A DNA stretch of 64,000 nt, taken from Tribonema minus (taxonomy: Eukaryota > Sar > Xanthophyceae > Tribonematales > Tribonemataceae). This document shows, one piece after another, positions 2,832 to 59,310 of this stretch. Location of the stretch: positions 434,001 to 498,000 of the forward strand of contig JAFCMP010000550.1 in the NCBI GenBank assembly GCA_017506865.1, read 5' to 3'. A program made the position numbers and the translations under genes. How positions within the stretch are numbered: the first letter of the stretch is position 1; each line of letters begins with the position of its first letter. The notes beneath the pieces were generated by a model. That model had not been told where the DNA came from, searched no databases, and saw nothing but the letters and a program-made list of their open reading frames with translations.

Positions 2832-2918
2832 CTCGTGGCCGGTGTGGTCACTGTCGCGGAAGCAGTCGTTGCACAGCACGCAGGTCTCGTCGGCCTGGCA
2901 GTTGGTGCAGATCCACAC
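2832..2918 (-). CDS. UBR-box zinc-finger exon (probable N-recognin E3 ubiquitin ligase, partial)
   Basis: An 87-nt, phase-0 exon encodes 29 residues beginning VWICTNCQADETC and ending CFRDSDHTGHE. The spacing C-x2-C-x5-C-x2-C-x2-CF, followed by two histidines (H-x2-H), is that of the UBR box. In UBR1/UBR2/PRT6-type E3 ligases this zinc fold binds the N-terminal residue of substrates and routes them to proteasomal degradation. The acceptor is ...gattag| at 2919 and the donor is a GC type (CACGAG|GCAAGT). The flanking exons that should hold the first zinc ligand and the CDCGD motif were not located, so this is one exon of a larger gene that probably runs left out of the window. The exon family is fairly certain; the exact paralogue is not. 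Confidence 0.72.
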
Positions 2919-2951
2919 CTAATCATACACACATCGAATGCGCGTGTAGGG

Positions 2952-3062
2952 CGAGTTCAAAGCAGATGATGTTTCGCAAAAGAAAACAATCCTGTGCCAG
3001 TCAGTACTGAAGTTCAAAGCAGATGTTTTTCAAAAGAAAACAATCCTGTGCCAGTCAGTACA
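2952..3062. repeat. two-copy direct repeat in the UBR-gene intron
   Basis: A unit of about 52 nt (GTTCAAAGCAGATG ... CCTGTGCCAGTCAGTAC) occurs twice in a row with minor differences, at about 2955-3006 and 3011-3061. It is non-coding as far as I can see. Confidence 0.8.
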
Positions 3063-3072
3063 TAAATTCCCC

Positions 3073-3093
3073 GCAGTTGGTGCACATCCACAA
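3073..3093. repeat. intronic copy of the UBR exon start and acceptor
   Basis: CAGTTGGTGCACATCCACA repeats, with one change, the region at 2899-2917 that encodes the start of the UBR exon on the minus strand. Read on the minus strand the copy gives LWMCTNCGEF before a stop, compared with VWICTNCQAD in the real exon. It lies about 155 nt upstream (5' on the minus strand) of the true acceptor. Confidence 0.6.
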
Positions 3094-4904
3094 CTGGTAT
3101 CATAGCGAGATCAAATGCACAGTGGTGTGACTTTTCAGAAAATAGGTGATTTGTTACTTTTTTGAAGAACATAAGGTGATTCATTATTTTTAAACCATGG
3201 GTTTTGAAGCAAGCTGCAGGACGGCGCACCGCGATAAATCTGCAGCCAGAAGCAGCAGCTGAATTGAGTTTCCAGCACATTCAAGATCAGTATACTTCAG
3301 CAGAGTGAATTACAATCATTACACTCAAATAGAGTCAAACAGCGCATGCAGTCGCAGCGTGAGTGTCAGAAAGGTTGTGATGGTGCTCACTGCCACTGAA
3401 TGCTGAGCGCTGCCATGAGGGCACAGAGCACTGCCACAATGACAATTACTGTAATGACAGTACTGAGCAAATGCATAAGGGCACAGTATCAGCACTGCCA
3501 TGAGCGATGCCATAGAGGCAGTGAACACTCTACCAGGTGTGCATTGTGAGCATAACGCATCCGCGCCAGTGGTGTCGCCTGCGGCCTTTCACACAGTGTT
3601 TTACCCCAATGCACGATCTCTCAAGGTGTGCAGCACATGATACCGCCGCAATGAGCGGCGCGTCAGCTGTTCAAAGTGCTCAGCGTTGAATGCAGCAGTG
3701 GCAATCCAAACATTGTCCATGCATGATGTTGGTATGCAAAGGCCGAGACAACAGCGGAAGCTGCACTTACGATGTCGTTCTTTGTGAAGGCATATTGGCA
3801 CACCCTCCTCATGCCTGCGCCACCGAGCCACTCCAGTGCTGAGTCTGCACCAATGGCAAACAATAGCGCAATTCACATATGTCAAATGCGTTTCATGACA
3901 ATGCCTGGTCATTGCAATGACACTAGCGCTGGCACTGAAACCTTGGTGGTGGCTAAAGACCTTCGTGTTTGAAATGTGGGAGCAACATGGCAAGGATAAA
4001 CCTTTTGCGTAAGGGTCATGGTATTTCCCCTGCGTGTGTGCACCGGCACAGTCACTCCAGCGCAGCGTCTTTGGCACCAACGGCCGATAATATCATACAA
4101 AGATTTTGAAAGGACACACGTGGAGCAACACGTAGCAAATACAAGGGCGGTATGCCAATGACTGGTGCAAAGGTGATGGTGACGGCTGACATCGTTCATT
4201 GAACATACACTAGCCCATTACAATGTGGCTCCGGTACCTTTTATGCGTGCCAGCACACAGAACCTGCAGTGACACCAGCCATGCTATCCTCATCATGTCA
4301 ACAAGATGACTTCATATCATTGCGCACTTTGCCTGCCCCTGATTGGTTAACTGAATCACTGCTGCAACAGGCAGTGGGCCAACGTAATTCTGTCCATAAC
4401 CGTAACCTGTCCCTACAAGAGGGCTCCAAGGAAGGGATTGAGGCTGATTAGATCTTGAAGTTAATGGCTGTACTGTACACAAGTGGGTGCAGTATGTAAC
4501 CCCTGCATCCAGCTGCCCCCCCGTCCCAACATCAGTGCCGCCGCATCGTTACCTAGACAGATTGTTTGTACAGATGTACATGGTTCGCTGCAGAGAAATG
4601 AAACAAAAAAATTGTCGGCACTGGATACTGCCTTCTTCTGAGCCAACGCGTAAGTGTCACCTTTGCATCGCGACAGCTGGTAGCATTAAAATACCACAGT
4701 TGTGGAGTCTGTTCTGCCAGACCAGGCTGGCAAGTGCAGCAACTTGTTCTCCGCACATGACACTGATGGCACATTCTGACGTGCAAGCATCCAGAAGCAT
4801 GCTCCTTGATCTCCACCTAACCCTAACTTTAAGACCGAGCAAATGATTGTTTCTGCGAATGACGTTTACGGCGCAACCTCGTGTGAGCATTCAGGAGCAC
4901 GCTT
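3094..4904. other. no gene recognised
   Basis: The stretch presumably includes introns and possibly unrecognised exons of the minus-strand gene. The open frames here (the longest is about 159 codons, minus strand, 3601-4080) are Cys/His-rich with no family resemblance and no coherent splice phases, so I do not call them. Confidence 0.35.
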
Positions 4905-5040
4905 GTGCAGGGCCTGCTTGTGCGGTACACTGCTATACACCCAGGTGTAGATGAGGAAGGAATGCGTCAGCAGCGGAGAGTCACACCTGGGTTTCACTCC
5001 ATGTGCAAGAGACCATCCAGTGCAGACAACTTCAGATACC
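4905..5040. repeat. diverged copy of the neighbouring exon end and donor (5139 exon)
   Basis: The segment around 4976-5042 (GCGGAGAGTCACACCTGG ... GACCATCCAGTGCAGA) matches 5124-5190, which is the 3' end and splice donor of the minus-strand exon 5139-5233. The copy has an in-frame stop (LLHME then TGA), so it looks like a decoy and not a second exon. Confidence 0.6.
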
Positions 5041-5138
5041 GCGGTTTTAGCATCCACAACACAGTTGAATGTGCGAGCGTCAGGACATACTGTGAAGCCT
5101 TGTTGTGCGGTATTCCCAGGGAAAGCGGAGAGTCACAC

Positions 5139-6426
5139 CTGGATTTCTGTCTGTCTGCAGCAGGCCATCCAGCGCAGAGTACCTCAGAACACCGCCCGCC
5201 GCGCCGGCATTGCACAGCATCAGCGTCAGTGACCTGCAATACGACATGACATGACCATTATGAGCATAATCATCAGCACGACATGTATGAGCATCACTAT
5301 CAGCATGACGTGATGAGCATCATCATCAGCATGACGTGATGAGCATCATCATCAGCACGACATGATGAGCATCATCATCAGCAGCACTACATGATTGGGA
5401 TCGATGCAGTGCAGGTTCATCTAGGGCACCAGCAAATGAGAAATGGCTCATCAACAATCAAGTCATTGTCAATAATTGCGATACGACGAGTCATTTTCAG
5501 TACACATTTCAGCTGATGTGACAGTACTCAGCAGAATGCCAGCGGCAAACCCTCGCACTGCCTTTCAAGCTGAGTCTGAGTGGCCGCACTGGGTGCGCCA
5601 GTGAGATAACAACAATGATGCGTATCCTGAGCACAAATCTGACTGATGAATGTCCCCTCTCTGTTGTTTGTTCAAAGGCTGGGCGTGTCCAAGACGTCAC
5701 TCTCGGGGACAGAAAACTTGTACAGTGATCCGTGAATGCTGTAGAAACTACACTGAATTCAGCATAATGTGCCTGTGGTCTTGAGCGGGCAACGACTCAG
5801 AGTCAGACTCCCTCAGTGCAATCACTGCCAGCCTGAATCGCCAAGGTAGCTGCCACAAAGTTTAGCAGAAATCTGATTGAATGACCTTATTCCATCCATT
5901 AAAACAGCGTTTGGAACCAGACAAACCCCTCGTCCCCCCCTACACACCTAAGCTGCCCCCCTCCTCATGTCGTTGTGCAACCATAAATGGCATGACAAAT
6001 GACAGCCGAGTGCGCTGCACTAGCAAGCAAGTACTTCAGAAGTAACATGTGCCTACCTTTTGTCTTGCAACCAACTTCCCGGGCGCTGTCTTAATGCAAC
6101 CTTTAACGCCATGACACCGTCCGAGTACACTGTACTGATCACAAGTACTGTACCTGCCTTTTGACGGCCTCTGCCCAAGCCTGCGCATACAAGTACACTG
6201 TACTGATTTCACAAGTACACTGTACCTACATACCTTTTGACGGCCTCCGCCCAGGCCTGCGCATCCGAGTACACTGTACTGATCACACGAGTACAATGTA
6301 CCTACTTCAGTTCAGGAGTACATACCTTTTGACAGCCTCTGCCCAAGCCTGCGCCTGCTCTTCCGTCCCCACCAGCTTCTCGTCGCTCTGCGCGAGCACA
6401 TCCGCCAACCATCGCTCCACGGCCGC
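5139..6426 (-). CDS. two consecutive exons of a minus-strand protein of unknown family (may belong to the UBR-box gene)
   Basis: Exon A is 6426-6326 (101 nt, phase 0 in, phase 2 out). It encodes 33 residues starting AAVERWLADVLAQSDEKLVG and ending WAEAVK. Exon B is 5233-5139 (95 nt, phase 2 in, phase 1 out). It encodes SLTLMLCNAGAAGGVLRYSA and then LDGLLQTDRNP. Splice sites: tgtcag| before A, AAAAG|GTATGT after A, tattgcag| before B, CCAG|GTGTGA after B. The phases join cleanly across a 1.1-kb intron. I do not recognise the family. The same strand and proximity to the UBR-box exon at 2832 suggest one gene, but exon B ends in phase 1 and the UBR exon starts in phase 0, so at least one exon in between is missing from my model. 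Confidence 0.5.
5246..5398. repeat. tandem repeat, unit about 26 nt (ATGAGCATCATCATCAGCA...)
   Basis: Five to six imperfect copies of a unit like ATGAGCATCATCATCAGCA followed by TGACGTG or CGACATG run from about 5250 to 5395. It is non-coding and sits in the intron between the two exons at 5139 and 6326. Confidence 0.85.
6120..6325. repeat. two intronic copies of the 6326 exon end with its splice donor
   Basis: On the minus strand the exon ends GCCTGGGCAGAGGCTGTC-type sequence, then AAAAGGTATGTA. Near-identical copies recur at about 6228-6262 and 6152-6186, each followed by GTATGT or a similar start and an echo of the flanking word GTACACTGTACTGAT. The GTACACTGTACTGAT echo itself occurs at about 6124, 6190 and 6270. 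Confidence 0.75.
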
Positions 6427-8858: not shown

Positions 8859-10004
8859 ATGCCCACAGACATGTGGATGCAAGTCCTCGAGTTCCTGCCA
8901 GACGGGCGCTACCTCCAGCTTTCATCCGTGAGCACTGCATGGCGGGCGCTCTATGCCAGTAGCATGCAGCTGAGGGGGCTGGCGACTCGTGAGAAACAAA
9001 CGAATCAGCAAGCCATGGTTGCATCAGCGCCCCTCATACAGTGGGCACTCACAAACGGGTGCAAGATGACCATAGCGCTGCTACACCACGCCTCCGTGTG
9101 CGGCACTCTAAGAGTGGTGCAGTTCGTGTTTGCGAACAACAGAGCGCCCCTCAACGACATGTTACAGGACGTGCCAGTGTGCGAGGCCGCTGCTGCACGG
9201 GGGGATCTGGAGATGCTGCAGTGGGCGCGCGCTCAGGGGTCCCACTGGAACGCTTTAACAACCGAGGCAGCGGCGCGCAAGGGGCACCTGGAGGTGCTGC
9301 AGTGGGCGCATGCCAACGGGTGCATTACATTACAACACATGCGCAGCAGCAGCCAGCGGAGGGCACCTGGAGGTGCTGAGGTGGGCACGCGACACCGGAT
9401 GCAAATTGGGCAAGGAGACATGCAATGCCGCAGCAGGGCGTGGCCACCTCGACGTTCTCCAGTACGCTCGTAGCCACGGCTGTGCGTGGAGCACTGAGAC
9501 GTCCTACAGCGCGGCCTACGGAGGTCACCTCCAGCTTCTGCAATGGGCACACGCCAATGGCTGTCCATTCGACACAAGCGCATACTCAGCGGCTGTGGAA
9601 GGCGGCCACCCGCATGTGCTTCAGTGGCTGCACGAGCTAGGCTGCCCCTGCGACGAATATGCATGCGTGTATGCCGCGGAGGGGGGGCGCCTGGACATAC
9701 TGCCGTTGCTGAGGGCGCAAGGCTGCTCATGGGACGAGAGGGTGTGCACAGCGGCCATACAGGAGGGAGCTCTGGAGGTGCTGAGGTGGGCACGCGCCAA
9801 TGGCTGCCCGTGGGATTTAGAGAGGAGCTTCTTATCCCAGAGTGCCAGCGGATCCATTACATGAGTCCGAAACGCCACATCAGCGTATTGTCAACGGTGG
9901 AGTGGGCGCTAGCAAATGGCTGCCCATGCAGCGACAGCTGTAGGGCTCAGTACATGGAGCTGCGGCGCAGTGTGGATGCTGCACAGGCGAGTGGCCCTCT
10001 TTAG
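8859..10004 (+). pseudogene. F-box and ankyrin-repeat protein, broken by two frameshifts
   Basis: The first frame (from ATG 8859) opens with an F-box-like segment (MPTDMWMQVLEFLPDGRYLQ, then LSSVSTAWRALY). F-boxes normally dock substrate receptors onto SCF ubiquitin ligases. It is followed by ankyrin-type repeats of about 33 residues of the heterokont style (GHLEVLQWAHANGC). Near 9325-9340 the repeats jump to the +1 frame: between two cysteine codons there are 13 nt where neighbouring repeats have 15, so about 2 nt are missing. That frame carries five clean repeats (for example GHLDVLQYARSHGCAW and GALEVLRWARANGCPW) and stops at 9864. A degenerate last repeat (VEWALANGCPC) resumes in the original frame and ends at 10004. 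No intron signals explain either shift. Sequencing error in a live gene is the main alternative. Confidence 0.8.
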
Positions 10005-14000: not shown

Positions 14001-17000
14001 AGCTAATCATTGACAGACGCTCTGGTTTTGTAATGTGTATGCGTTTTCCCGCTGTGCGCACGCCAGCCCAAGGATGAAGTGGGAGCTCTTAAAGCTATGC
14101 AGATGGTATTGGCTGCCATCATGGTGGCGCTAGTGCTGGCTGCCATTTATCTGGCGCTCACTGCTGAGCAAAGGTGCGTACATATGGCCCGTGTGCTTAC
14201 ATTTCAAATAAAGTCATTATTAGTGTTTGCAAATCATGAGTGTTTCGTTATTGTAATGTAAGCGTGTCATTGTATGTCATGTATGTGCATCATGATAGTA
14301 CACGCTGCTGACACCAGACCACGTGTGTACACTTGTTCAAACACTTACCTCAAGTCATGCCAGCTGGAATTAATTGCAACTTATCAGTGTCATTAAGGAC
14401 TAGTGTCTTACCTGACAACTCACCGCTCACCAAAGCGGTGTACCTCAAATGAGTAAAGTGTTGATGTTGCGTTCAAGGTAGTGTCACGTGTTTGAAGTGT
14501 TTCCAGTAGCGTTATTGCTTCCGTGTATGTTCCTACCCGCTCGTTTTCCCTCTTGCTTTGCACAAAAGTGTGCGTGCCACTGCATTGGACACGTTTGGGT
14601 GTATGCAGACAGCTGCACAACATTCACTGGGCACTATGACAGCCATCTTGATTTTTGCCAGTTCACGCAATTTTTCACAGCCTGCTTGTTGCATTTTTGA
14701 GGCGACGCAACACATTTTCATGAACTGTAACATCTGTGCAATGCATTTATTAACAACCATTGGCAGTGGATGGATGAAGAACATCCATGACAGCGCAAGT
14801 TCAAGAAATGACACTCACACATGCGACTGTAATCATCTACTTGGACGTAATAAACAGAGTGCCCTGCCGTTGTTGAATGCCGTGAGTGTTGCATTGATCG
14901 TGGATCCCGCACCATGTCGATTGTTGATGCAGCTTGCTTCTTTGATTAGCAATAGTTGGCGTCCCTCACCAAGATCTGATGATGTGCTCAATGTGCTCAA
15001 TGACATACAGCAATATTAAGACAGCAAGGGCACTGCGGGCGGAGGATGAGGGAGCGGAGGAGCACAAAAATGGCGAGATGGCAGGTAATCATGGTCACGA
15101 ATTCATCATATGTATTCATTGATGGATTTCATCAGATACAGGCAGACAGCATTCAGCACAAAAATGGCGAGATGGCAGGTACTCATATCTATAAGGAATT
15201 CATTACAGGTGTTCGTGGAAATTCACCACATCCAGAAATTGGGCAAATGCTTGGCCCCCAGTAGGTCCTTAAGCAATGCAATTCATTTGATCAGGTGCAG
15301 ACCGGCAGCATTCAGAAGGCCTGCATTCACATATCAAGATGGAGGCGGTGATAGAGCAAAACTGATATTGCACTGTGAGTAATGACTGGGAAACTCTTGG
15401 CGTGAAAGCGGCACGAAGGGAACAAGCAAATCTCATAAGGTGGCGGGGGCAAAATGCTGATCATCCGTAATCATCGATCCCTAACACCTAGACATGGGTT
15501 CAAACGTGTCCACAAAGTGCTGGCAAGGGAAGAGCACAACACTTTGCCGGGAAGGAACCTTTCACTTTTTGATGGATCTGGTGCCAGAGCGACCTACAGC
15601 TGTCCAAAGCGCTGGCAATATCAAGCGTGTTCAGCAGCTTGCTTAGTCTGATCAGACAGGTACCTCTGTTGACACCAGCTTTTGGCTGGTTTGTGGCTGG
15701 AGCTATTCCCAGGTTGTGATATTCTATATATACTAATATATAGGTTGTGAGCGGTTGTCAGAGCGCCAGTGAAATTTGATCCCATCCGAATGCAGTTCAG
15801 CAGCCAATGGCCACTGTTCGGACAGCAAAAACATTTGATCTCTCTCTCTAACAGTGATGAGCGGTGTAGACACATGTACTCATCACATGATGTACTCATA
15901 CACACATTCTATTCGATAAAGCATTGTATTTGCATCTTCTTCGTTGGCGGTATTAGGAAGTTTGCTGGCCGCTGATTTATGTATGTTTTTTTTTTCCATG
16001 CTGTCGCATCAAACCTGTACGTCGGTTCTGCAGCCTCGCTTCAGGCGCCCATTGTTCCAAGCGCCAATCTTACGCCTGCGCTTGCATGCCATGTATGACA
16101 AGTCGCGACATGTTCCGTTGCTACTGGGACAGCAACGACGCTCAACTTCTCTTCCTATGTGACAGGGACGACTCACTGACGAGTGCTGGATACACAATAC
16201 ATACATACGGTTTATACGTTGAAGCATCACACTTGCAAATATTGTTGGTGGTACATATCAAAAAGTGCGCTGGCTGACATGCTGGTTTCGTGTATGTTTG
16301 TCCATACCGTCGCATCACACGCTTGGGGCAGGTGCATCACACGACATACACGCACAGGCAAGGCTCACTGTGCTCACCAAATCGCAGGTGAGCTGACACG
16401 CATAACTCTGTATGGCGTCGTGTTGCTTGCAACAATGTACACAAGTATCGACTTTAAAGTGTACACGCACTGTAATACAATGCTTCCTGATACTGTCCTC
16501 TTGGTAATGTCATTGTGCACAAATGGTGAGAAAGCAGTACTGTGCGCGTCTTTGAATTCACTAATGATTTTAAGCCACGTGTTGGTCATGCGCGTAGGGA
16601 ATGGGGGAACAAAGCGGATATGCTAGGACCAGGTGTTGCTTTGCCTTGCATGTCATGTCATGTCATGCGCTTGGGGGATATGCAGTGAGATTCCAAGAGT
16701 GTGCTTCGGTACCTGTTGGCGCAGTGATGTAGCAGTGATGCCTTTTTTTATAATGTCCACACATCTCGCACCAGACGTGAAAAGCAATGGGATAGAGCCG
16801 TTTCAATGTAATGAGTATGACGAAATGAAACGACAGCGATCATTAGACTGAAGCACTCAAGTGCTGACTGACCTTGGTGAATTGTGCAGTGGTGCTGTGG
16901 TGGCCGCACATTGCATAACGTGCCAACTGCAGCAGTTTTGCCCCCTGTTCTTCGTGATCTTGTGTTCTGCGCTCAAGAAGTCAAGCTTCCGCTCATTGCC

Positions 17001-20000
17001 ATGTTTAATGTCCAACTGCATCATTGCATCATTCTGTGCCGTTGACTGGCAGACCAAGTTCTGTGAGGAGATGTTCTCCAGATATGGGGGCTCCATTGCT
17101 CACCTGAGTGCATCAGACGCCAAGGCTCTGGTGGAGGGGGTCAGGGGGATGACTGTGGCCAAGGTGATGAGATGAACATTATAATGAATTATATGCTGGT
17201 GAATGGTGCTATTTCAATGACTACTATGACTACTACATAACTGTGGCCAAGGTGATGAGATGAACATCATAATTAATTATATGCTGGTGAATGGTGCTAT
17301 TTCAATGACAACTACATAACTGTGGCCAAAGTGATGAGATGAACGTTATATTTAATTATATGCTGGTGAATGGTGTTATCAATAGAAGTACGAAGCTATG
17401 AGTATGTTTATGTGCTGGTAATGATGTTACCGCTGGTGGAGGGGGTCAGGGGGATGACCGTGGCCAAGGTGATAAAACTCGAAAGTAGTTGTATGCTGGT
17501 GAACAACCTCATTGTATTAGTCTAGAAAGAATATATCATGATTTATGCTCGTGAATGATGTCATCAATTATGCAAAATGCCATAAAATGTACTGTTGTGG
17601 TAGACTGTGGCCAAGGTGAGCCAGATCGGGGGATGACTGTGGCCAAGATGATGAGATGAACATGATAATAATTATATGCTGGTGAATGGTGCTATTTTAA
17701 TGACAACTACATGAAACATGCCATAAATGATGATGCACTGTTAAGATAGACTGTGGCGAAGGTGATCTATAGATTCAGGGGATGACAGTGGCCAAGCTGA
17801 TACACATGACGATATTTTTATGCTGGTAAGCAATGTTGTCAATGAAAAGCATGAATAAAGTTATGTGCTGGTGAATGATGGCATCAATAATTTCCAGGTA
17901 AAACATGTTGTTAAAATTACTGATGTTTTTCTGAGGTAGACTGTGGCCAAGGTGAGCTAAGTCGCCAGTTAGCTGATCATGCGTGCGGAGTGGCAGCAAC
18001 ATGAGAGCACCAGAGACAAGAGCACTCTTGGTGGGCCATAGTCATTCTTCATTGCAAGCAAGAGAGGGACGCGGGTGACAAGGCAAAGCAGGACAATTTT
18101 GTTGAAGTTCAGACTTGCCAGGGGGTAGGCCCCGGGGGTTCACTGCAAAAATCAGGTGTAGGTTCGCAACTAGGGTTCACATGAGCCATGACTCTGGACC
18201 AGGTTGTAGCAGGGCAAATGAACATTGTGTGCGCCTGGTTCGCTTGTCTTGTATGCAATCGCGGTGTGCGGCTGTTTGCGCGCGGCTCAAAAACGTATTG
18301 CACGGTCAACCACCGCAACCAAGGCCCAGTGCTTGTTCTGCTTGCTCACCTGTCTGAGCGTTACGTTTTGAAACAATGCAGCTCACCACACAGCTGGAGC
18401 TCATGAGCCAACAACGCGGTCGCCCTGGCGGCGTTCACGGGTCCATCGCAGCAGCGGTGCACGCCGAGCACGCTGCCGCCGCCGCTGCCGCCGCCGCCGC
18501 TGCCGTCGGCTCTGCGCCACGGCCATCGATCGGTGAGCACTGATGCATGTGACCAATGATATCATGGATAATGGCAATGTCATGCATGGCGTTCACTGTC
18601 AACATATGGATCGCAATGCGCAGCAGCAGCACTGCTTTCCGTGCCTACCTAGGGTTAGGGTTAGCGAGCTCTCGCTGCCTCCGCTGCTGCCGTCGGCTCT
18701 GCGCCGCGGCCATCGATTGGTGAGCACTGCTGCGTCTGACCTATCATAATGGCCATGTCATGAATGACAGCGGTGCGCATGGCCGCTGCTGCTGCCATTG
18801 GCTATTGGCTCTGTGCGTCAATCTCACACATTGTTGAATGAAAAACGAATCAAAAGATCGTTGAGCTCTAGGTTGAATATTGAAGTGAAAGTCCATGGCG
18901 CCCATCTCTTGTGTGCCTGTGTCTGTTGCATGACATCCTCAAGTGCCGTGTGTACACGTTCGTCACTACTTTACCTTTGACAATGATACCAGTACCAGTA
19001 GCACTGGTGTCAACATTCCAGTGGGTGCTGCTGACAAGACTCGTGCAACTTATATTTGAGACTGCAAACTCTGCTGCTCGCAGTACCGGTGGCGGCTGCA
19101 GCCAGATCCCCTGTGCGGCGCGCTGCTGCAGCATCCATTTCAGCAGCGGCAGCTGTGGGGCCACCACCATCCACAGCAAAGAAGGCCGCCGCAGAGGCTG
19201 CCAGAGCAGAGGTCAGTTCATGTATAGCAGCATTAGCGATACTGGAGAGAAAGCAGCTGCGGCGGCTGCAGACGCTGCGTTGAGTGAGTTAACCAAATTC
19301 TTTTGTAAGGTAGTTGTGATGCGCAGCAAAGGGGCTTGACAATGTCCAACAATTTCTCGTTGCTGTCAAGTGCTCCATGGCCATCACTGGCAAAGAAGCA
19401 ATTGGCCACGGGGTCCACCTGTTTGTGTTGCTTGCGCTCATGTATACCTACCCCTGTGTATGCCAATCACCACTGATGCTGTTGTTTGAGGGTTCAAACT
19501 TCGCTGCAGCTTGTGGCATGATACAAATGTATTTTTTTGGCGGAAAGAGAGCTTGCAGAGCTGGCGGCGAAGTGGATGGAAGTACCCAAAGTGTTTGCTC
19601 CGCCAATCAGTGCTCAACAAGATGTTGATCCTTTAACTTCGTCCGTGCCGACGTGAGAATGTTATGGCCATGGTGATACTTCGCGACGTGCATGCATGGT
19701 GACCCAATGCATCTCATGCACACCTCTTGCCAGACTCATGCCGACCTGCCTTGTGCTACTCCTACTGTGGCGGTTTCAGATGGAGCAACGGCAGGCGGAA
19801 CGCGCGTCAGCGCTCCTCGGGCACCCAGAACATGCGGCCAAGCCCGCGCCCGCAACCAACCACGTGCCAGCAGCTGCCGCCGCTGCTGCCAAGCCTGCGA
19901 CAGCGCCTGCGGAAGCGCCCAAGAAGCGGGGACGGCCACCCAAGTCTGCTACTGCAACTTCCCAGGAGGATGCCGCGGGTGAGGTCAAGAGGCGACGTGC

Positions 20001-38136: not shown

Positions 38137-40419
38137 TCAACAAGGGCCCCCTTTCCTGCATACTGGGCCATCAAACCCCTCTTGTGATCCGCCAGTCTCA
38201 GTGGCTGATTGCCCTGCCTTTGCAGTCCATTCATCGATGGCTGCAGCGCCCTTGAGTCTGATGTCGGCAACGCCCTTTAGAGTGATTACGTCACAAGAGG
38301 GGTTGAGGACCACTAGTGAGGGGATTCCGTCTACTCGCTTGGAGACGCCCACTGCTGACATCTCGCGCATGGCGCATATGGAGTAGCGCTGCTTGAGGGC
38401 AGTCCTGCACAGAGCAGGAACAGAAAAACAAGCAAGCGCTTGTCAGAAAGATTGCCGGTGTGTGACGCGGAAACCCGCCTCTGAGCTGAAAGAAATCACA
38501 TTGTAACAGTGTTCCGTTGCATGTTTATTTTACAAATACTTGTCTTCCTATTACTGCCAACAAGATCAGGAATGACAGAACCCTTTCTACGTCCACCTCA
38601 AAACGGTCCATCACGGTCACCCCCAAATGTTGTTCATTGATTTGGTGTCTACTCTCCCATCTTAACTTGAAGTAGAAGTTTAATGCAGGCACAGGTGTTG
38701 AGCTGGCAAAAACATATCACTGGCAATGTGTGTTGACTAAGGCTATTTGCTTCTTTGGTGATACACAGGGGGCAGGCATCTGACGTGAACCTATCGTAGC
38801 ACCACATCTACTCATTTATGTTATTATTCTACCATGCTGAGCATCAGGGCATTTGCAATCAAAGCGACACCTGCAGAGGACTTTTCCCGCTGTGATGGAC
38901 ATGTGTATATACTCACAATTGAGACACACTCACCGCCACGCAGCGCATGCCCCAGGGTTAGGGTAAGGGCAACCATGCACTGCGCAGCTGCCAGACCTAG
39001 ACCCAGACGCCACTGACAGCATACTAGGCTAACCCTAACCCTCACCCTAACCCTAACCCTAACCCTAAGCCTATGTGGACGCTCGCTTGTATAGTGCAAC
39101 ACCATAGAATATCTTGCACCTGATGAGACACTGACTACATTGTGAATGTACCCCCACAATGTATCGACACGCGTAAAGTCGCACACACGCTAGTGTAGCC
39201 CTCTCTAATGGCAAGCGGCCCATGCGTGCTGCCCTCTCTGCATGCACTGAGAACCCTGCTGGGCACTGCCACTACTAGGATTCACGCACCGTGGCAATGT
39301 GAGAGCATCCACCAATCGTGGCACTTTTTCGCCTGCGGAAAACCCACTTGAATCTTGCATCACAAGCGCGTAGACCATAGTATAGTCACTTTACCTGTGG
39401 TCTCCATCAAACGGCACCGCTGCCCACGCGGCGTGTGATCTGTCCATGCAGTCCTGCATCTCCTGAGCGCTGCCATCGCTGCTCACATACACCACGTCCA
39501 GCCTGTTCACGCGCCACACAATGTCAGTGGAATATGGCACGGCGCAAGTCAACGAGGAAGGTGACGCTCTTGACTACGGTGGATGAACTACTTGAATGCA
39601 CTACGTAGGTTTCATTCTCAGGCTGCTCAACTGCAAGGCTACCAATCTCCCAAATGCTGCCATTGTTGCCAACGCAACCTGTCGTGAGGAATAACTGTTG
39701 GCAGATACTACCACCAATGAACGAAGGCGAAGGCAACTCGCGAAGCTGCGGAAAATGCCCCTGAGGGTGCACCATCTGCTGAAAGCTGACTCAAACATCA
39801 CTCGAAACAAGCCCAAGTAAGAGCACGCGAGGACAACATGTGGCTGCTCGAGCACAAGGCACGAAAGAAGCAGGACAAAGGTCGTACATCGAATGAAGGG
39901 GTGCATACAGCCCCATGGTCACAAGCAACGGGAAGCATTGCAGTGATGTGCGTACAAGCATTGGCCATACCGCACCTGTTGGGCTGCCCAGCCGTATTAA
40001 CCGATTCATATGTAGACTTGAGTAGTGGCGTGAAATCCTTGCACTCTGGGCACCATGACGAGGAGAAGTACAAAGCCAAGCACGGAGCGCTGCCGAAGCC
40101 CTGTCAAACGGAGCAAGAGCACCAGGTGTCATGGCAGACAAATCAGAGCAGCCTGCCTTGACCGAGCAAATAAGATTCAGTGCACACACTAGCAAGGCAT
40201 CATTGGCGGTTTCGCGTCTACATGGGTGAATCTATTTGATGCATTTCCTGTGACTAACACAACAAGCCAGCAGCGTGGTCAACAAACTGCGCAATCTTTA
40301 ACTTGAGTGAGGTAGCCAACCCACTTTCCGCAAAAAGCAAGAAGCGTCGTCATTCAAAGCGATCGGCGTCAACGCACCTTTGCGGCGGCAGTAAGCAGCG
40401 GAACGCCAGGCAAGCGCAT
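38137..40419 (-). CDS. thioredoxin-fold protein, tryparedoxin/nucleoredoxin-like (WCPEC active site)
   Basis: Four exons with closing phases (543 nt, 180 aa): 40419-40378 (MRLPGVPLLTAAAK), 40100-39976, 39502-39395, 38404-38137 (TGA). Exon 2 carries LALYFSSSWCPECKDFTPLL, in which WCPEC is the redox-active CxxC. Exon 3 is RLDVVYVSSDGSAQEMQ..., matching the strand after the active site, and ends AAVPFDGDH. Exon 4 has the cis-proline region (VDGIPSLVVLNP) and ends in GGPC. Order and length fit single-domain tryparedoxin/nucleoredoxin proteins, which reduce disulphides in the cytosol or nucleus using thioredoxin- or trypanothione-type donors. No signal peptide is obvious. Exon 1 is the weakest part. 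The gene is convergent with the gelsolin gene. Confidence 0.82.
39029..39068. repeat. interstitial telomere-like repeat (CCCTAA)n
   Basis: About six CCCTAA units with one variant (CCCTCA) are present. Smaller runs in the window are at 18650-18664, 23718-23740 and 25187-25200 (TTAGGG orientation) and at 52706-52730 (CCCTAA orientation). This one is inside an intron of the thioredoxin-fold gene. Confidence 0.85.
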
Positions 40420-41969: not shown

Positions 41970-41971
41970 CG

Positions 41972-42182: not shown

Positions 42183-42462
42183 TTCATCTTTTTTGACTGC
42201 TGATGCACCGTGCTCCGTGAGCTGTCAACGGTATCTTGCAACTCAGATGAGTTCTCATCCCACTCCCGGGATCCCCCACGTGTGAGTGCGATGGTGTCCA
42301 AGCTTTTTCGGGGCGCAGTTCAGACTGACCTAACTAGGACGCCTGGCCTCCGTTCGGGGCTTAAAGATGCAAATCCATGAAGTCCCCACACCCTACGCAT
42401 TGACCATATGCATCTCAACCTCAATGATTCTCACCTAGTGCAACATGGTCTGAAAAGTATAG

Positions 42463-42490
42463 AAGTACAGACCTCATTGATAAAAGTACA
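42463..42490 (+). mobile_element. left boundary of the retrotransposon stack: tail-only copy
   Basis: AAGTACAGACCTC (42463-42475) is followed by ATTGATAAAAGTACA, which resembles the bare 3' terminus of the element (AATTAATAAAAAGTACA). The same AAGTACAGACCTC occurs at the right edge of the stack (47561-47573), which makes GACCTC a possible target-site duplication enclosing the whole array. Confidence 0.55.
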
Positions 42491-42837
42491 GGCTGTGGCG
42501 ACGGAGTATGCCAGCAGGATGTCAGTGCCCGGAGGAGCGCGCCCTCAGGCTAAAGCTCTCAAGGGCATCGCCCTGGCGCGCTTACGCTCGGCACTGTCGG
42601 CAGCGCTCCACATGGCGTACTCTGGCCGTGTCATGACACACATGGCAGAATCCAGGGGGGGGGGGCACATGGAGGAGGACGTAGGGGAGGACCCCGAGAT
42701 GCCATTTGGCGGCGTCGGCGTTTGAGTGGTTGTCGTTGCGACACTTCAGACTCTCATACGACATGTAGATTCCTAACAGCTAGATGCCAATTCTCTGGGC
42801 TTTTTCGCGCCCTGAGCGAGAATTAATAAAAAGTACA
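42491..42837 (+). mobile_element. non-LTR retrotransposon, 5'-truncated copy A
   Basis: This is the last ~347 nt of the element family. It holds the end of the C-terminal coding region (starting AVATEYASRMSVPGG, stopping at 42725 after DPEMPFGG) and the 3' UTR ending GCGAGAATTAATAAAAAGTACA. It has small insertions relative to copies B and C (for example CCTCAGGCTAAAGC) and is the most diverged of the three. Confidence 0.85.
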
Positions 42838-45800
42838 GGAGCTGCACTGGAGAACGCAGCAACACATCTGTTGGCACACACAATGACGATGTTCGTCAAT
42901 GCGGCGCAGGAGCCAGATTCCGCAGGGCGGGTGCAGCGACTGCAAAGATCCACGATTCTACACCACCTCATGCCATCACTCATTACCTCCACCGATGGCG
43001 CACCTGGCATCACTCGCTCCGACAGAATCAGAATGTTGGCACGCGGTGAGCTTGACCGGTTGGTGCCAGCGCTCCTCGCACACGCGCGTGCGCACCGGCG
43101 CTGGCGCGCGCGCCAGCAAACGGAAGCAGCGATCAACGCCTACGTCCTACAGTGCATGGGCACACGGGGGGGGCTACAGCAGGCAGCGCGTCTCCTTCAG
43201 CCCAAAACGGTGGCGAGACCTGATGATGACTGCTTTGCCGCCATGCAGTCCAAACACCCCCCCGCTGCGCCAGGGGAACAACTCCATGAGCTATCCGGCA
43301 TGGTTGATCAGCTTGTGGCGAAAGCAGCCAGCAGCAGCCTGTTACAGGGGGAGGGAATTGAGCCAGAGACGGTTGCCAAGCTCATCCAGCGAGCAAGCCC
43401 TTACAGTGGAGCAGGCCCATCGGGGCTGCGCTACAGCCACCTGCAGGATGCGCTACGCACAAGCTGGGGACGGCATGAGTTTGCTGCTGTCCTCACACGG
43501 TGGCTTCAGACCGTTATGCGGGAGGCTGCGCGGCTGCCGGATGCCTTCTGGCAGTTGCATGACGCGGGGCGCCTGACGCCACTTGCAGAACAACAGGAAG
43601 ATGGTACAGCTAAGCAGCGGCCCATCGTTTGCGGCGAGGTGCTGCAGCGACTATGCACTTCGGTGTACGTGGCAGACCGCAAAGACTTCCTGGCGGAGCT
43701 CCTTGAGCCAGACGGGCAGTATGGGGTAGCCGTCTCAGCAGGAGCGGAGAAAGCGGCCATGGCCGGCAAACTCGCGTATGAGCTCGGTCACTGGCAGTTC
43801 ATGCTGGACCTCAAGAATGCCTTCTACATGGTGTTCGTCCTAGCGGCAGCGGAATGGGTAGCAGCACAGCTGCCGGACTTCCTCGACTACTTCATCGGCA
43901 CATACGTTCGCACTCGGCCACGCCTGCTGATCCAGCACGTCGACGGCTCCACGCGCATCATCATTTCTCAGCGCGGGTTTAAGCAGGGGGACCCCGCGGC
44001 ACCGATGCTCTTCTGCGGCGCCATTGCTCAGTGCTTGAAACGGTTCAATGAGGCGGCGGCCGCGCAGCGCGCGCGGAGGCGGATGGGCGCCGACATGGAC
44101 GATGCCAACGTCCGAACAGGCGCTTGCACGCTGACTCAGGATGACATACAGGCGGTGGCGCAGCTCAAACAACACTTTGCGGAGGTGGGGCTGGAGCTAA
44201 ACCTCACCAAGTCACGCGCGCTGCCTGGCAGGGGGCATGTGGTGACAGACCACGAGCGGCAACTGCTGCAGCAGCTGGGCGTTCAGCTAGTGGGGGATAC
44301 GGATGAAAATCAGAACCGTGGAGCTGTGTTGCTGGGGGTGCCGTGGGCCACAGCAGCTTTGTGGACGCATGGCTGCGCAGGGAAGCGGGTGCAGGCGGGG
44401 CAGGGGCTCGATTTGCAGAGCGATGCGCGCGCCTGACATCTCCGAGGGCTATGTTCAGGTTACTGCGCTACTGCGTGGTGCCTCGCATGACGTACTGCCT
44501 GCGCACCATTCCCACTACGCAGACAGCGCCAGCCGCCAAGGAGTGGGATCGGGTCACGCAGTGGGTGCTTGAGCACTCAATGGGCCTGCAGCCACCAGGC
44601 CAGACCTGGCGCCAGTTTGAGCAAAGTGGGGCCCACTTCCATCTGGCAGCGCACGGCCCGGCGTTACAGCAAGCGCGACTCCCAACACGGCATGGCGGCC
44701 TTGGCATTACCAACGCCTGCGACATCGCTGATGCTGCGTATGTGGCGGGCACGTTGCAAGCGCTGCAATCAGCACTCTCTGGATGGGCAGGGGTGCTGCA
44801 GCAGGCGGCTCCTCAAGCGGCTGCAGACAACGCTGCTGAGGATGCGGCAACACAAGCGGCACCGGCAGCAGCGGCAGCAGCACCAGCACCAGCAGCATCA
44901 GCAGCGGCAACTGTTACAGCGGCAGCAGCGGTTGCCAGTGGAGGCGCGACCGCTCCGGCAGCGGCAACTGCATCAGCGGCTGGCCGCGCTTATGGCGCAG
45001 CCATTCCGGCAACACACGACGCAGCTGCCGCTGGATCAGGGGCCGCGGCGGCAGCACAGGCGGCACCAGCGGCAGCAGCAGCAGCGGCGGCGCACGGCGC
45101 AACTACTCCGGCGGCAGCAGCAGCGGCGGCAGCAGCAGCTGCTCCAGCATCAGAGGCTGCTGCAGCAGCGGCAGCACATGTTTCACCTCAAGTGGCCTCG
45201 GCGGCATCACTAACTGCAGCATCAACAGCAGCGGCTGCGGGCATAGGCAACACAGCTGCTACAGGCCCTACTAGCCTAAGGGCTGCTGCAGCACCTGCAA
45301 CAGGAGCAGCGTCGGCAGGCGGCGCCCTGCAACAGGAGCAGCGTCGGCAGGCGGCGCCGCAACCGTGCCGGCTGCGACAGCGGCAATGGCGGTGGCAGCG
45401 GCCAATGCGGCAGGTGCTGCACCAACACCTGCGGCAGCAGCAACACCACTGGCAGCAGCAGCAACGGCAGGCGGCGCAGCTGCAGCACCAGCGCACGCAG
45501 CAGCGGCAGCCGTCAATGCAGGCGCTGCGCGTTCCACACCAGCAATGCTACAAGGCGCAGCAGCAGCAGAGGTGGCGCGCCTGCCCCTCATGCGGACGAT
45601 CGCCACAGCTGCCACATCTCTACGTGCAGCAACAGGTGACAAGCTGGAACATATACTGCCACCAGCGCTAACGCCACTGCAGCAGCAACCACCTACGCAG
45701 CAGCCGCCGCTGCGGCCGACAGCAGGTGGTGGCACTGGTGCGGATGCTGCTTGCGTACTGGACGCCAGTGCTCTGCAGTTGCAGTGTAGCCTGAAGCGCC

Positions 45801-46882
45801 CCAATCAGAGTGCGCTTGCAGATGCCGTCGCTACCAAGCTTGCAGATAAGGTGGAGGCGGACCTGCAACAGCTGCCGCAGGGCACGCAACGCACGCAAGC
45901 ACTTGCTCGATTCCGGTCGCAGCGCCACATGCACTTGATCGGCATGGCATTCCTCAACGAGCCCATGTACTCCACAACGGCTTCGTTCGATGGCCTATCC
46001 TGGCAGCTGGCCGTCAAACGCGCCATCGGAGTAGAGGAGCAGACGGCAGGCTGCAAGCTGTGCGGGAAGTCGCCGGGCGGCACCCTGCATGCACGGCTGT
46101 GTCAAGCGCCACGCGTCAAGGCGCACGACACCATCGTCCGCAATAGCGTCAAGAGGGCCACTGGCGGCCACGCAGCGCATCCTGCGGCAATACCTCAAAA
46201 CGGGACTGGTGGACGAGGACTACACGCCGTTTCTGGGGTCCGCCGGGCCGCCGGGGAATCGCAGGATGGACATCATGCTGCCTGCCGACGCCTTCCCGGT
46301 GACCGGCTACGACGACCCGACACGCCACCTACCGCTCATGATGGACGTTACCTGCTTCGAGGCACAGGTGGCGTCGCGGGCGGCGAAGACTGCAGCAGAC
46401 CCCGAGCGATGCTGCCGCGACCAAGAGGCCGCCAAGACTACCCACTATTCTGGTCATTATGATCAGAATTGCTACAAACTTGCCACTTTGGCAATAGGGT
46501 CATTTGGCAGCATCGGGGAGCAGGGGCGGAAGCTGCTGGAGGCTGTGGCGACGGAGTATGCCAGCAGGATGTCAGTGCCCGGAGGAGCGCGCCTTAAAGC
46601 TCTCAAGGGCATCGCCCTGGCGCGCTTACGCTCGGCACTGTCGGCAGCGCTCCACATGGCGTACTCTGGCCGTGTCATAACACACATGGCAGAATCCAGG
46701 GGGGGGGGGCACATGGAGGAGGACGTAGGGGAGGACCCCGAGATGCCATTTGGCGGCGGCGGCGTTTGAGTGGTTGTCGTTGCGACACTTTCAGACTGTC
46801 ATACGACATGTAGATTCCTTACAGCTAGATGCCAATCATCTGGGCTTTTTCGCGCCCTGAGCGAGAATTAATAAAAAGTACA
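42838..46882 (+). mobile_element. non-LTR retrotransposon copy B: reverse transcriptase plus restriction-like endonuclease, disabled
   Basis: The coding frame starts within the element (GAALENAATHLLAHTM; the upstream ATG at 42784 belongs to copy A's 3' UTR), so the 5' end is truncated. RT motifs: KQRPIVCGEVLQRLC (about 43612), MLDLKNAFYMV (43801, catalytic Asp), GFKQGDPAAPMLFC (43975), DMDD at 44092-44103 in place of the usual YxDD or FxDD, and LELNLTKS (44190). Then come a thumb region, an Ala-rich expansion (44810-45560), a CX2CX8HX3C zinc knuckle (CKLCGKSPGGTLHARLC, ~46053) and a C-terminal domain with DIMLP ... MDVT resembling restriction-like endonucleases of R2-type elements. Frameshifts occur at ~44338 (1 nt lost), 45297-45360 (32-bp tandem duplication) and ~46150 (1 nt gained). 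The 3' end is AATAAAAAGTACA. Confidence 0.88.
44780..45560 (+). repeat. Ala/Gln-codon trinucleotide expansion inside copy B
   Basis: GCA/GCG/CAG-rich sequence encodes a poly-Ala-like spacer between the RT thumb and the zinc knuckle. Alternative frames read as poly-Gln/His, and the minus strand as poly-Leu, Cys or Arg. A 32-nt unit starting GCAACAGGAGCAGCG is duplicated at 45298-45361 and alone accounts for the 0-to-2 frame change. Confidence 0.85.
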
Positions 46883-47567
46883 AAACGGGACTGGTGGACG
46901 AGGACTACACGCCGTTTCTGGGGTCCGCCGGGCCGCCGGGGAGTCGCAGGATGGACATCGTGCTGCCTGCCGACGCCTTCCCGGTGACCGGCTACGACGA
47001 CCCGACACGCCACCTACCGCTCATGGTGGACGTTACCTGCTTCGAGGCACAGGTGGCGTCGCGGGCGGCGAAGACTGCAGCAGACCCCGAGCGATGCTGC
47101 CGCGACCAAGAGGCCGCCAAGACTACCCACTATTCTGGTCATTATGATCAGAATTGCTACAAACTTGCCACATTGGCAATAGGGTCATTTGGCAGCATCG
47201 GGGAGCAGGGGCGGAAGCTGCTGGAGGCTGTGGCGACGGAGTATGCCAGCAGGATGTCAGTGCCCGGAGGAGCGCGCCCTAAAGCTCTCAAGGGCATCGC
47301 CCTGGCGCGCTTACGCTCGGCACTGTCGGCAGCGCTCCACATGGCGTACTCTGGCCGTGTCATGACACACATGGCAGAATCCAGGGGGGGGGGGCACATG
47401 GAGGAGGACGTAGGGGAGGACCCCGAGATGCCATTTGGCGGCGGCGGCGTTTGAGTGGTTGTCGTTGCGACACTTTCAGACTGTCATACGACATGTAGAT
47501 TCCTTACAGCTAGATGCCAATCATCTGGGCTTTTTCGCGCCCTGAGCGAGAATTAATAAAAAGTACA
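46883..47567 (+). mobile_element. non-LTR retrotransposon, 5'-truncated copy C
   Basis: It begins abruptly with AAACGGGACTGGTGGACG right after the AAGTACA end of copy B, equivalent to position 46196 of copy B. It runs through the endonuclease-like domain (open to the stop at 47454) and the 3' UTR to AATAAAAAGTACA at 47567. I count about six differences from copy B over about 685 nt, so the two copies are recent. Confidence 0.88.
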
Positions 47568-56000: not shown

Positions 56001-59000
56001 ATTAACTTCACCTGAGAGGCGTTGCTGGTGAATGCCACAGCTTGCTTCCGTGCCTCCGGGTGCTCGGTGTTGTACTCAAAGCACCTCAAACATGGTGCAA
56101 CACAGCGTCAGGTGGGTAAAGCAAGCGGTTAATTACTATGGTACTTAGAACGCTGTCTGCAGTGCAGGTGTAAATGCCTTAATTGCTTGAGACGTGTACA
56201 TGTGTCACACCACTTGTGTACGTCGGTCAGTCAGGATGGCAGAGCAGGCGGCTGATTGCGCTGCTGATTCCAGGGTCTGTGATGCAATCGACTCAAAAGC
56301 ACTTTGTTGAAGTTTGTGATGCACAAGTCAAGCTGCCTGATGGCGCAGTCCCCAGCAACATTAGAAGCGTCACCTTGGCATATTCTCTGACAGTGCTGCA
56401 GCAGGGCTCTGCGAAATGTGCTCTACATGTGTAAAAATCAAAACAGCGCTGTGCATGTGTTTCTTGCTGCACTTGCTGTAGTGCAATGGCCACACAGATA
56501 CATGTGACCAAACGGCTGGTCAACCACTTGACGCACTCAACACATCTGCACGGCACACGTTCCTCGTTTTTGAGTGTCGCATGTGATATGAATTATTTCA
56601 TTTTTGAAAGGACTTTACCACGCAAACTGCAGATACGAAGTGCTGTACCACGCACACTGAAGCTTGCCGTTACGAAGCGTCACAAGCTGAGCATACATGA
56701 TTGTGACAAGAACTTAAAGGGCACATGTATAATTGACAAAAAAATGTGAGCTGAAAGAGGGAAGACAACGCTTCAACACGTGCTTCCACACAAACTTCAA
56801 TACAAACTTCACCACACTTCAACTTTGTACCTGTAGCCGATGGCCACGGTGAGCACCAGGGCGCTGAAGAAACCCACATAGCACATGTGGCGCAGGGCGT
56901 GCAGGCTCTTGGCCAGACAAGCGGGCAGTGTCGCAATCAGGCACCCCACAAGCACCCAGTTGCTCTCCTCAGGTGTGAAGATGACTTCACCAGCTGAGAT
57001 GGGAGTAGCAAGCGGTATAAATGCAGGAGCGTTAGGTCGAGTGTATCGTGGGTGGCAAGTCAAGTACGAGTACTCCGTTCAAGTTCATGTGGTAGCATTC
57101 AAATGACATCACGCTGCCATTTCAATTCTGGCTTTGACGTGTCAGCAACTGCTATGTAGTGTGATATGTCCATTCACAGATTGGAAGCCTCACAGGGCAG
57201 TATTGATGCAGTTTGCATAGTACGCATTGCAAGAGGAATAGCAGCACTGTGGTTTGACTGTCAACCTGGCAATGAGTGGCAGACTATAAAATTATGCTCA
57301 AGCATTGCTCTGCTATGCTGTGTGGATGGCAAAGCTTATGGCAAGTGGTCTGGAAAGCCAGTGTAGTGCCGGTGACTCCCTATTGTGCTCACGCACCAGG
57401 GACACTTGGGGCATGGTGCGGGCGTACTGCTGGTAGTTGCATAACGCCAGTTGCCACATGCACTTGTGTATAGGCCATGTATGTGACGTGATTCCCTGAT
57501 GCATAGCCTGATGCATAGCCCAAGCGTATATACAGTCATATCGAAGGCTGCTGGTGATGATGACGGCTGACCGAATGTGTCAAGCTGCAAACAACCAGTG
57601 TTCTGAACGCAAATAATGTCCACTGACATGCACTTAGCACTGGCATCAGCACTGCTCTGGTGGTCACCTTCATTCTCTGTGAACCAGCCCACGAGCAGTC
57701 CAATGAGGCCAGACCAGATGTCACGAACCAGTATCATATAGGCCAGCAGCACGAATAGCGTCATGCAGAGCAGTATGAGGGTCGTCGCGTAGCCCCCTGT
57801 GGGCCCAAATGCCACCTTGGCGACCTGTGAGTGCAGTGCACACACATTGCATGTGTTGCGGAGGGGTTAAGGATATGGCCGCAAGGCATACTTGAACAAG
57901 CACTTCATACATATAAATGTATACAACACAGCAATGCTCATGGTCAACACGCACAGCGTGGAATCAACAACGACGGTGGCCCTATCACATAAGTGTTGAG
58001 TTGTGAATGGCTAACAGACCATTGTCAAAGTATTGGTACCCTGAAGCGCCTTCTCATAATAAAGCACACCGCCAAACACCAGGGCCCAGCAGATGAGACA
58101 TCAATGCAAATGGCACAAGCGCGCCTGATGCGCAGCACTGTTGTTGTACGTTGTGGTCATACTGAATGTGATTCCATGCAACCACTACTGAAATCTGTAG
58201 GTGGGTGCACCCATTGTGATAGCGCCAAGAGTGCGGTCTCTCTATGGTATGTATGTATGCAGCACACTTATACTTGTACTTGAGGTATTGCGACTCGCGT
58301 CTCAGAGCTTGTCTCAGCAGCACGTGCACGTCTGCATGCATATGTCTGAAGAAGTATACTTCTGAAGTACATTTAAGTATATCTATGTACATACAAGTAC
58401 CTGTATGTATGACTGTGTTCCCGTCCGCCGTGTGCAGGAGCACAGTATGTAAAGGCTGAAGTCCGTGGCGATGCCGCTGCAAATCAGCAGGATTGCGCCC
58501 AACACATAACCTGTCTGTTGCAGCGTAAGCGAAAGACATGCAAGCATGTGAGCACAGCATCAAAGCAATGACCATGTTCATGAAGGCCTTGTTGGCGCCA
58601 CTATGCTGCAAACAAACACTGCGTTGTCTGCTGCTTCAACATGCCACTTCATTATGTACTGGACCCTCACCACCGCCTGCTTCCAAGAGAGCTGGATTTG
58701 AGAGAGCTGTTTCGCACCACCACGGCGGTGCTCAACCCCATACTCTTCACCTGATCGCAAATCTCAACTGCACTGCACTTCCAAGCGTACACTTGCCTGT
58801 GAGAATGCGTACGGCAGACTGAGCGTGCCGCCGCCCACCACCGTGGCAATGAGGTTGAAGACTGCGCTAACGGTGTCGCTGCGTCGGCTCTGGTTGCCAG
58901 GGCTGGGGTGGATGATCTCCGGGGTCTTGAGCATATTGGCAATCTCTCTTGTAGTGGCGTGCCTGCCAGATGATGAAGGTGCGGCTGAAGCCTTGTGATG

Positions 59001-59096
59001 TGGTGCCAGTGCCACACGTGCCATCTGCCTGGCTCCCTGCGGGCTGTTGATTGGTGGCGCAGCGAGTGAAGGGAGAGTCACAGGTGGCAGGTACAT
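50094..59096 (-). CDS. amino-acid/auxin permease (AAAP, SLC38-like) transporter
   Basis: Thirteen exons whose phases all close (1596 nt, 531 aa): 59096-58797, 58514-58401, 57824-57668, 56993-56831, 56084-56012, 55355-55226, 54361-54264, 53576-53503, 53090-53005, 52311-52249, 51752-51629, 50796-50673, 50183-50094 (TAG). It opens the fold with VFNLIATVVGGGTLSLPYAF, the hallmark first helix of AAAP transporters. Further marks are FPIMSLAFMCQFNIL, GYFYAYGNTQDDILLNF and LVWSICGSSVGFF ... PALFYLKI. About eleven membrane segments can be counted, with a Ser-rich loop (SSSRGNYSSLNGE) before helix 9. Such proteins carry amino acids with H+ or Na+ across plasma or vacuolar membranes; the substrate cannot be read from sequence. 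Intron 1 is GC-AG (TCACAG|GCAAGT). The start may instead be ATG 59024, which directly follows a possible acceptor. Confidence 0.93.
52706..52730. repeat. interstitial telomere-like repeat (CCCTAA)n
   Basis: About three imperfect units (AACCCTACTAACCCTAACCC) lie in an intron of the amino-acid transporter gene. Confidence 0.7.
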
Positions 59097-59310
59097 GAAT
59101 CAGTTGTCAAGGGGTAGTACGCATCCGGTCGTCACGAGGTTACCACTACCACCGCTTGGCAGGAGTAGGTGCTGTGTCACGCCATCTGCCGCGCGCCCTG
59201 CGGGCTGTTGGAACAGGTGCGCAGCGAGTGAAGGCAGAGTCACGGGAGGAAGTCACATTGATAAGTTATCAAGCGGTGCGTAGTACCACGCGCTTGGCAG
59301 GAGTACGTAC
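59012..59310. repeat. tandem duplication of the transporter's 5' edge
   Basis: The block at about 59015-59110 (on the minus strand AACAGCCCGCAGGG ... GGCAGATGGC) is repeated at about 59190-59280, including the possible acceptor AG and ATG, the GTGACTCTCCCTTCACTCG-like segment and a CTTGGCAGGAGTA word. The outer copy reads ATGGCGTGA, so its ATG is not usable. Confidence 0.65.

Follow-up and report, generated by a model that had tools for sequence, protein, structure and literature searches.

In the potato RdRp gene, one tandem duplication crossing an intron-exon boundary created a new intron that is used, according to the passages of that study available here (PMC4974935). CST-Pol alpha fill-in at staggered double-strand breaks produces small tandem duplications (<100 bp) in mammalian cells, as described in excerpts of a second report (PMC8355091), and introners, in the sections of a third (PMC9860276), are mobile families at many loci, some of them with 3-9-bp target duplications. 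Here we analyzed a stretch of 64,000 nt from Tribonema minus (Xanthophyceae; assembly GCA_017506865.1, 158 Mb in 554 contigs; contig JAFCMP010000550.1, positions 434,001 to 498,000), hereafter the window, in which introns carry copies of the edges of their own exons together with the splice sites. We lean towards the view that these copies are the neutral debris of tandem duplication at the DNA level, with units of ~50-200 bp that end in the exon on one side and in the intron on the other.

The original prediction, made from the letters of the window, listed 12 pairs of exon-edge-like sequences. All 12 were found at, or overlapping, the positions given for them, and each pair outscored all 300 first-order-Markov shuffles. 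The main gene of the window is JKP88DRAFT_351513 (9015-37149, plus strand), which encodes a protein of 2068 aa with an HP domain and a gelsolin domain, here termed villin-like; its exons were placed by mapping the public annotated protein to the window, with a gelsolin repeat match. This protein confirms 7 of the 12 as exon edges (donors at 17163, 18532, 26393 and 27013; acceptors at 31480, 32111 and 33848), and an eighth, in the minus-strand exon near 2923, is backed by a UBR-box domain (PF02207). Exon-edge status is without confirmation for the remaining four, namely 6327 and 5124 (neither domain nor gene model present), 15084 (predicted by the ab initio gene finder only and absent from the annotated villin-like protein) and 59190-59280 (no modelled gene). 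The proposal that the copies straddle splice junctions is supported. The cases do not come, however, from at least five independent genes in the window: eight fall inside the single villin-like gene, and three more are minus-strand cases between 3 and 6.4 kb, in the neighbourhood of the exon with the UBR-box.

The annotated protein and the shuffle test together support the following donor edges, all on the plus strand. The 3′ edge and donor of the source exon at 17128-17168 are followed in the intron by an array of eight copies (17237-17957; repeat search and shuffle test), and the array at 17239-17965 has nine matches to GTGGCNAANNTGA, one authentic and eight copied, where the prediction had given about nine copies. 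The edge at 18487-18542 (exon end 18532) recurs at 18674-18729 with 51/56 identical bases and similarity extending into the intron, and that at 26373-26399 (exon end 26393) recurs at 26448-26474 (26/27). The edge at 26982-27021 (exon end 27013) has a copy at 27159-27198 (35/40) whose donor GT has become AT, as had been predicted. At the acceptor side, also on the plus strand, 28-bp tandem copies at 31350-31410 hold the acceptor of exon 31480 and its first 5 exon bases, a copy of the acceptor edge of exon 32111 lies at 31941-32040 (unit of 110 bp, 92% to 32051-32151), and one of the edge of exon 33848 lies at 33700-33748 (84% to 33813-33861). A plus-strand donor flank with 4 exon bases at 28663-28739, repeated at 28750-28827 (79%), was absent from the earlier list. 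Among the less firmly placed pairs, 15155-15186 (plus strand) copies 15061-15092 (31/32), the presumed exon 15011-15084 being absent from the annotated protein. On the minus strand, a presumed, predicted edge near 6327 is accompanied by two copies (6124-6354), 4972-5042 copies the presumed edge at 5124-5195 (57/72), and 3073-3104 repeats the acceptor edge of the exon that bears the UBR-box (near 2831-2923; 27/32). The pair 59020-59115 and 59181-59277 (81%; 59020-59277, no strand assigned) lies where there is no gene model.

We extended the comparison to 213.7 kb from elsewhere in the genome (173.7 kb + 40 kb), giving a sample of 277 kb with the window. There are two slightly different sets of gene models, the second of which adds the 40 kb; the 24-mer test, the modelled-intron window test and the counts of direct and inverted pairs in 298 intron regions given below use the first. 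In the first 237 kb, 24-mers at exon edges matched their own intron at ≥18/24 for 16/145 donors and 11/151 acceptors. As controls, the reversed intron gave 1 and 0 matches and the reverse-complemented intron 0 and 2, and a different intron gave none on either side. Exon windows at least 60 nt from an edge matched introns far less often than edges did (18/5340 and 39/6641); the refuting outcome named with the original prediction, interiors matching at the same rate as edges, thus did not appear. This test rests on ab initio gene models made in the present analysis, from which exons scoring <4 or shorter than 60 nt were dropped (as in the modelled-intron window test), and introns >1500 nt were excluded; low-complexity windows were removed here and in both window tests described below.

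Under a stricter local-alignment score, applied to annotated or modelled edges (introns <60 nt excluded), a copy was found at 27/148 edges, against 0/148 in each of three controls. Chance is therefore insufficient, as the original prediction had argued. Exon interiors 60-120 nt from an edge matched in 7/125 cases at this score, four of them in the UvrD helicase gene. The distribution among genes is very uneven: copies were found at 11/14 edges of histidyl-tRNA synthetase (HisRS), 9/12 of UvrD, 3/10 of phosphofructokinase (PFK) and 4/50 of the villin-like gene, and at 0/62 edges of the other modelled genes at the threshold of this score, so that the description as pervasive is not supported in general. 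The HisRS gene lies on another contig (C100) and is 98% identical to the annotated T. minus HisRS, whose protein set its exons; the exon lists of HisRS and the villin-like gene were drawn up by hand from protein matches. UvrD and PFK owe their names to domain and PDB matches, and their edges, like those of the ‘other’ genes, were set by the ab initio gene finder rather than by public annotation. For UvrD and PFK only the higher-scoring exons were used (7 + 7 in the anatomy count below, 7 + 6 in the edge count and the site-strength test). For the ‘other’ genes, exons scoring <5 or shorter than 40 nt were dropped in this test, the intron-intron pair test and the annotated-gene window test.

Across the four genes with copies, 56 copies were recovered at 92 edges, and 46 of these come to within 12 nt of the edge. 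In these 46 copies the exon part averages 89% identity to the exon, a mean of 8.0 of the 12 intron bases beside the site are identical as well, and the 40-nt intron flank stands out from random intron (z>2) in 24 of them. Because exon part, edge and intron flank are copied together, the duplicated unit contains the splice junction. Complete tandem units across junctions can be seen at 31941-32151 (110 bp, 92%), at 17149-17379 (79-88 bp, 88%) and in the PFK array (~167 bp). The pairs are predominantly direct, with 145 direct and 34 inverted in 298 intron regions, and 424 and 35 in the whole 277-kb sample, where protein repeats are included. HisRS carries copies at both ends of five of its seven introns and at one end of the remaining two; in the HisRS introns that we examined at single-base level, each copy sits near the end of the intron whose edge it repeats, donor or acceptor, and the spacers between copies are diverged and of unequal length. 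Young complete units (identity ≥84%) are too few to be decisive: 13 rows, two of which form one array, comprise seven arrays overlapping model exons, three that are intron-only within gene models and two outside models.

In the PFK array (contig C554, 2149-3049), at least three repeats of an exon end occur, two of them spaced by ~167 bp, and the gene finder reads them as in-frame tandem exons. At 85132-85496 from the window start, which is beyond the window, a 182-bp tandem unit of 100% identity overlaps model exons and must be very recent. The model protein at this place has, as judged by eye, a stretch in common with transposon-like models on contigs C200 and C550.

The position of the splice site within the unit bears on the Rogers model, in which duplication of an exonic AGGT segment gives rise to an intron and by which each array would be the scar of a new intron. 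The copies do carry exon sequence with splice signals, and in potato a junction-crossing duplication did make an intron, as the cited passages recount (PMC4974935). Under the model, however, the intron should consist of exon sequence and AGGT should fix the breakpoints, whereas the copies here carry intron flank, and in HisRS the two kinds of edge copy keep to their own sides of the intron. AGGT-breakpoint intron gain does not fit, since the splice site is internal to the unit in 46/56 copies and not at the breakpoint. Of the suggestion that a mutational process favours AGGT edges, the mutational origin agrees with our data; the site lies within units whose exon and intron parts vary, rather than at their ends. 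We regard intron gain of this type as very improbable.

When each of the 148 edges was compared with an intron drawn at random from a different gene, none matched, which argues against an introner, and a genome search with the 17226-17965 array, which skips common words, found its own locus only. An assembly artefact or misread gene models could be suspected, since the analysis was carried out on assembled contigs and the edges of UvrD, PFK and the ‘other’ genes are ab initio. Yet in their exon parts the 56 copies match the exon at 76-98% identity, with different spacers where these were examined, unlike collapsed or repeated contig ends, and two of the genes rest on public annotation. We consider an artefact the least probable of the explanations weighed here.

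The copied splice sites look neither preserved nor purged and decay like neutral sequence. GT or AG is retained in 38/46 copies (donors 22/26, acceptors 16/20), against 0.80 expected under neutrality. The mean donor score is 5.9 for authentic sites, 3.8 for copies and 3.7 under the neutral expectation (24 copies), and the corresponding acceptor means are 5.2, 3.5 and 3.1 (16 copies). These values bear on the proposal of a regulated decoy or alternative splicing system, in which copies are kept because the spliceosome uses them or is titrated by them. Many copies could indeed be recognised, given the number of intact sites, and the ab initio gene finder spliced several of them as exons. A decoy function is nevertheless unsupported, because GT/AG and site strength have decayed as neutral sequence would. 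Moreover, the gap total is not divisible by three in 14/40 copies, at least one copy contains a stop, and the two annotated proteins, villin-like and HisRS, include no copy. This part of the original prediction found no support, and we judge such regulation very unlikely, if slightly less so than intron gain by the Rogers model.

Under the reading that we favour, neutral duplication across junctions, a tandem duplication would copy a unit with one end in the exon and the other in the intron. A unit internal to the exon would be purged, since the protein would be broken, and a junction-crossing unit would be tolerated: the authentic splice site would stay in place and the surplus exon piece would be removed with the intron. 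The copies would afterwards drift as neutral sequence, and the exon-derived half would decay more slowly, as drift would fall mainly on the intron copy. In the densest genes, we infer, introns originally fell short of the unit length; every duplication that could be tolerated would then have taken in an exon edge, and introns that started short would lengthen by stacking exon edges. The dominance of edges would then arise because exon-internal events are removed, because the exon-derived half is slower to decay and, in these genes, because the ancestral introns may have been shorter than the unit. Break fill-in of the CST-Pol alpha type is a possible source of the units, by analogy with the mammalian duplications in the cited excerpts (PMC8355091).

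The bias towards exon borders is strong, and it is only partly explained. We compared it with simulations that share several simplifications (one list of unit lengths, a fixed exon rate and hand-chosen rates). A uniform neutral simulation with introns of ~350 nt gave a profile that was level apart from a small rise at the edge. In long introns, uniform duplication at the lowest of the rates used hit 0.06-0.08 of edges; the 4/50 of the villin-like gene falls in this range, a comparison of edge rate only and not of its mix of pairs. HisRS, with a mean intron length of 947 nt, has 0.79 of edges hit and 21 pairs with an exon edge, 12 derived from these and three intron-only. With introns of 300-750 nt, uniform duplication gave more intron-only than edge pairs in 18/19 settings, and the lone exception (300-nt start; 7.8 edge against 5.0 intron-only) had 0.21 of edges hit; past bursts in introns starting at 300-500 nt still did not reproduce HisRS in the settings tried. 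Uniform duplication in long introns thus does not reproduce HisRS, which therefore points, in these models, either to introns that started short or to a 10-30-fold focus of duplication on edges, and the simulations do not separate the two.

In the second of these possibilities, breaks or duplications would be 10-30 times commoner at exon-intron junctions than in the intron interior, in a subset of genes, through some process connected with splicing, transcription or exon chromatin. The HisRS mix of pairs speaks for it: with a focus of 10-30 in long introns (rates hand-chosen, intron length limited to 1100), simulations gave 24-37 edge, 10-21 derived and 2-5 intron-only pairs with 0.69-0.80 of edges hit, and a 3-fold focus was insufficient. 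Also in its favour, windows at 0-48 nt on the donor side of modelled introns (120-1500 nt) were duplicated in 28/521 cases against 6/474 for deeper windows (60-108); against it, the difference is much less marked on the acceptor side (27/575 against 19/545). In the two annotated genes (introns of at least 120 nt), only the window that begins at the splice site shows an excess (6/31 and 5/31), with 9/124 and 4/118 at 12-48 nt and 10/156 and 9/160 at 60-108. Intron-intron pairs (introns of 90-4200 nt) touch an edge in 8/32 cases, with 11.6 expected and hence no edge excess, although many such pairs are copies of edge copies, so that this measure is not decisive. The annotated-gene windows and the intron-intron pairs count weakly against targeting. 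The 62 copy-free edges of other modelled genes also tell against it, as does the focus-30 model, which yields too many edge pairs (37 against 21) when 0.80 of edges are hit. The test for targeting itself draws on a single annotated gene and a simple simulation, and short ancestral introns offer an alternative to targeting, and we regard targeting as rather unlikely, albeit worth serious consideration. If it were true, introns in those genes would lengthen from their two ends towards the middle as exon edges were copied again and again, and DNA breakage and repair would be tied to splicing, transcription or exon-positioned chromatin.

Uniform duplication from introns of ~80 nt, a length below that of most units, gave edge-dominated arrays, with 25-26 edge, 41-45 derived and 6-7 intron-only pairs per seven introns and 0.60 of edges hit. 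Single simulated genes with such short starts reach HisRS-like levels, with 10/14 edges hit in up to 9/20 genes and 11/14 in 3-4/30. Several results weigh against the short-intron account. Short-start simulations average 0.28-0.63 of edges hit, against 0.79 in HisRS. Where their introns exceed 750 nt they give 24-45 edge-derived pairs, against the 12 observed, and the oldest setting, with 9.5 such pairs, has only 0.40 of edges hit. The simulations with a 10-30-fold edge focus fit HisRS better, and the differences among genes, 11/14 in HisRS against 0/62 in others, find no explanation in this account. We prefer it to edge targeting on grounds of parsimony, as it needs no new mechanism, and do so with modest confidence.

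Other features of the sample are recorded here in their own right. The villin-like exons mapped from the annotated protein largely match ab initio models that were trained before the annotation was consulted, and these models hold several small additional exons absent from the annotation. A villin search with a 525-aa query gave no match at E 1e-20, and a 1600-aa query retrieved JKP88DRAFT_351513; Rfam gave no match at the gathering score. An ankyrin match at 8877-9990 belongs to a gene family with VLQWARANGCPWD-like repeats, also present on contigs C550 and C554, and this repeat family is probably behind the direct-repeat peaks at multiples of ~80 bp. The region 42784-47567 holds what by eye are retroelement remnants (an open reading frame resembling reverse transcriptase) and a 685-bp direct duplication of 99% identity. 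Interstitial telomere-like TTAGGG repeats occur at 38 loci in the 277-kb sample, 21 of them on C100; those in the window are at 4816, 18650-18664, 23718, 25187, 32951, 38955, 39029-39068 and 52714. The TTAGGG 10-mer count is 40, against 0-2 in five shuffles, and none lies in a predicted exon. As repair marks at copy ends these inserts were rejected, since 9/38 loci have a repeat boundary no more than 20 bp away, a number that random positions on those contigs matched (10.1).

Intron lengthening without transposons is, to our knowledge, poorly documented. The introns described here contain building blocks that were derived locally and are graded in age, which allows growth to be followed one event at a time. 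They also abound in decoy splice sites of considerable strength and so offer a natural setting in which to study how the spliceosome passes over such sites, and they call for caution in annotation, since the gene finder turned copies into likely false tandem exons. We found no report of a comparable density of edge copies in the literature searched, mostly titles and the openings of abstracts.

Among the systems closest to this one, introners, as far as the sections cited describe them (PMC9860276), likewise place repeated sequence with splice sites in introns; unlike introners, each array here matches its own exon edge. The CST-Pol alpha duplications share with ours their short, direct and tandem form, but are mammalian and, in the excerpts cited, carry no link to splice junctions (PMC8355091). 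The Rogers model, as relayed in passages of the potato study (PMC4974935), also invokes a small tandem duplication involving splice-site sequence, and differs in starting from an exonic AGGT segment, whereas here the authentic junction lies within the unit and no new intron was seen. The nearest counterpart is potato RdRp itself, where, in the same passages (PMC4974935), a tandem duplication across a junction carried the splice signals along; that was a single event, in contrast to the dozens of copies found here inside existing introns and skipped by two annotated proteins. On the reading preferred here, tandem duplication across splice junctions has probably built up as neutral intron growth in certain genes.

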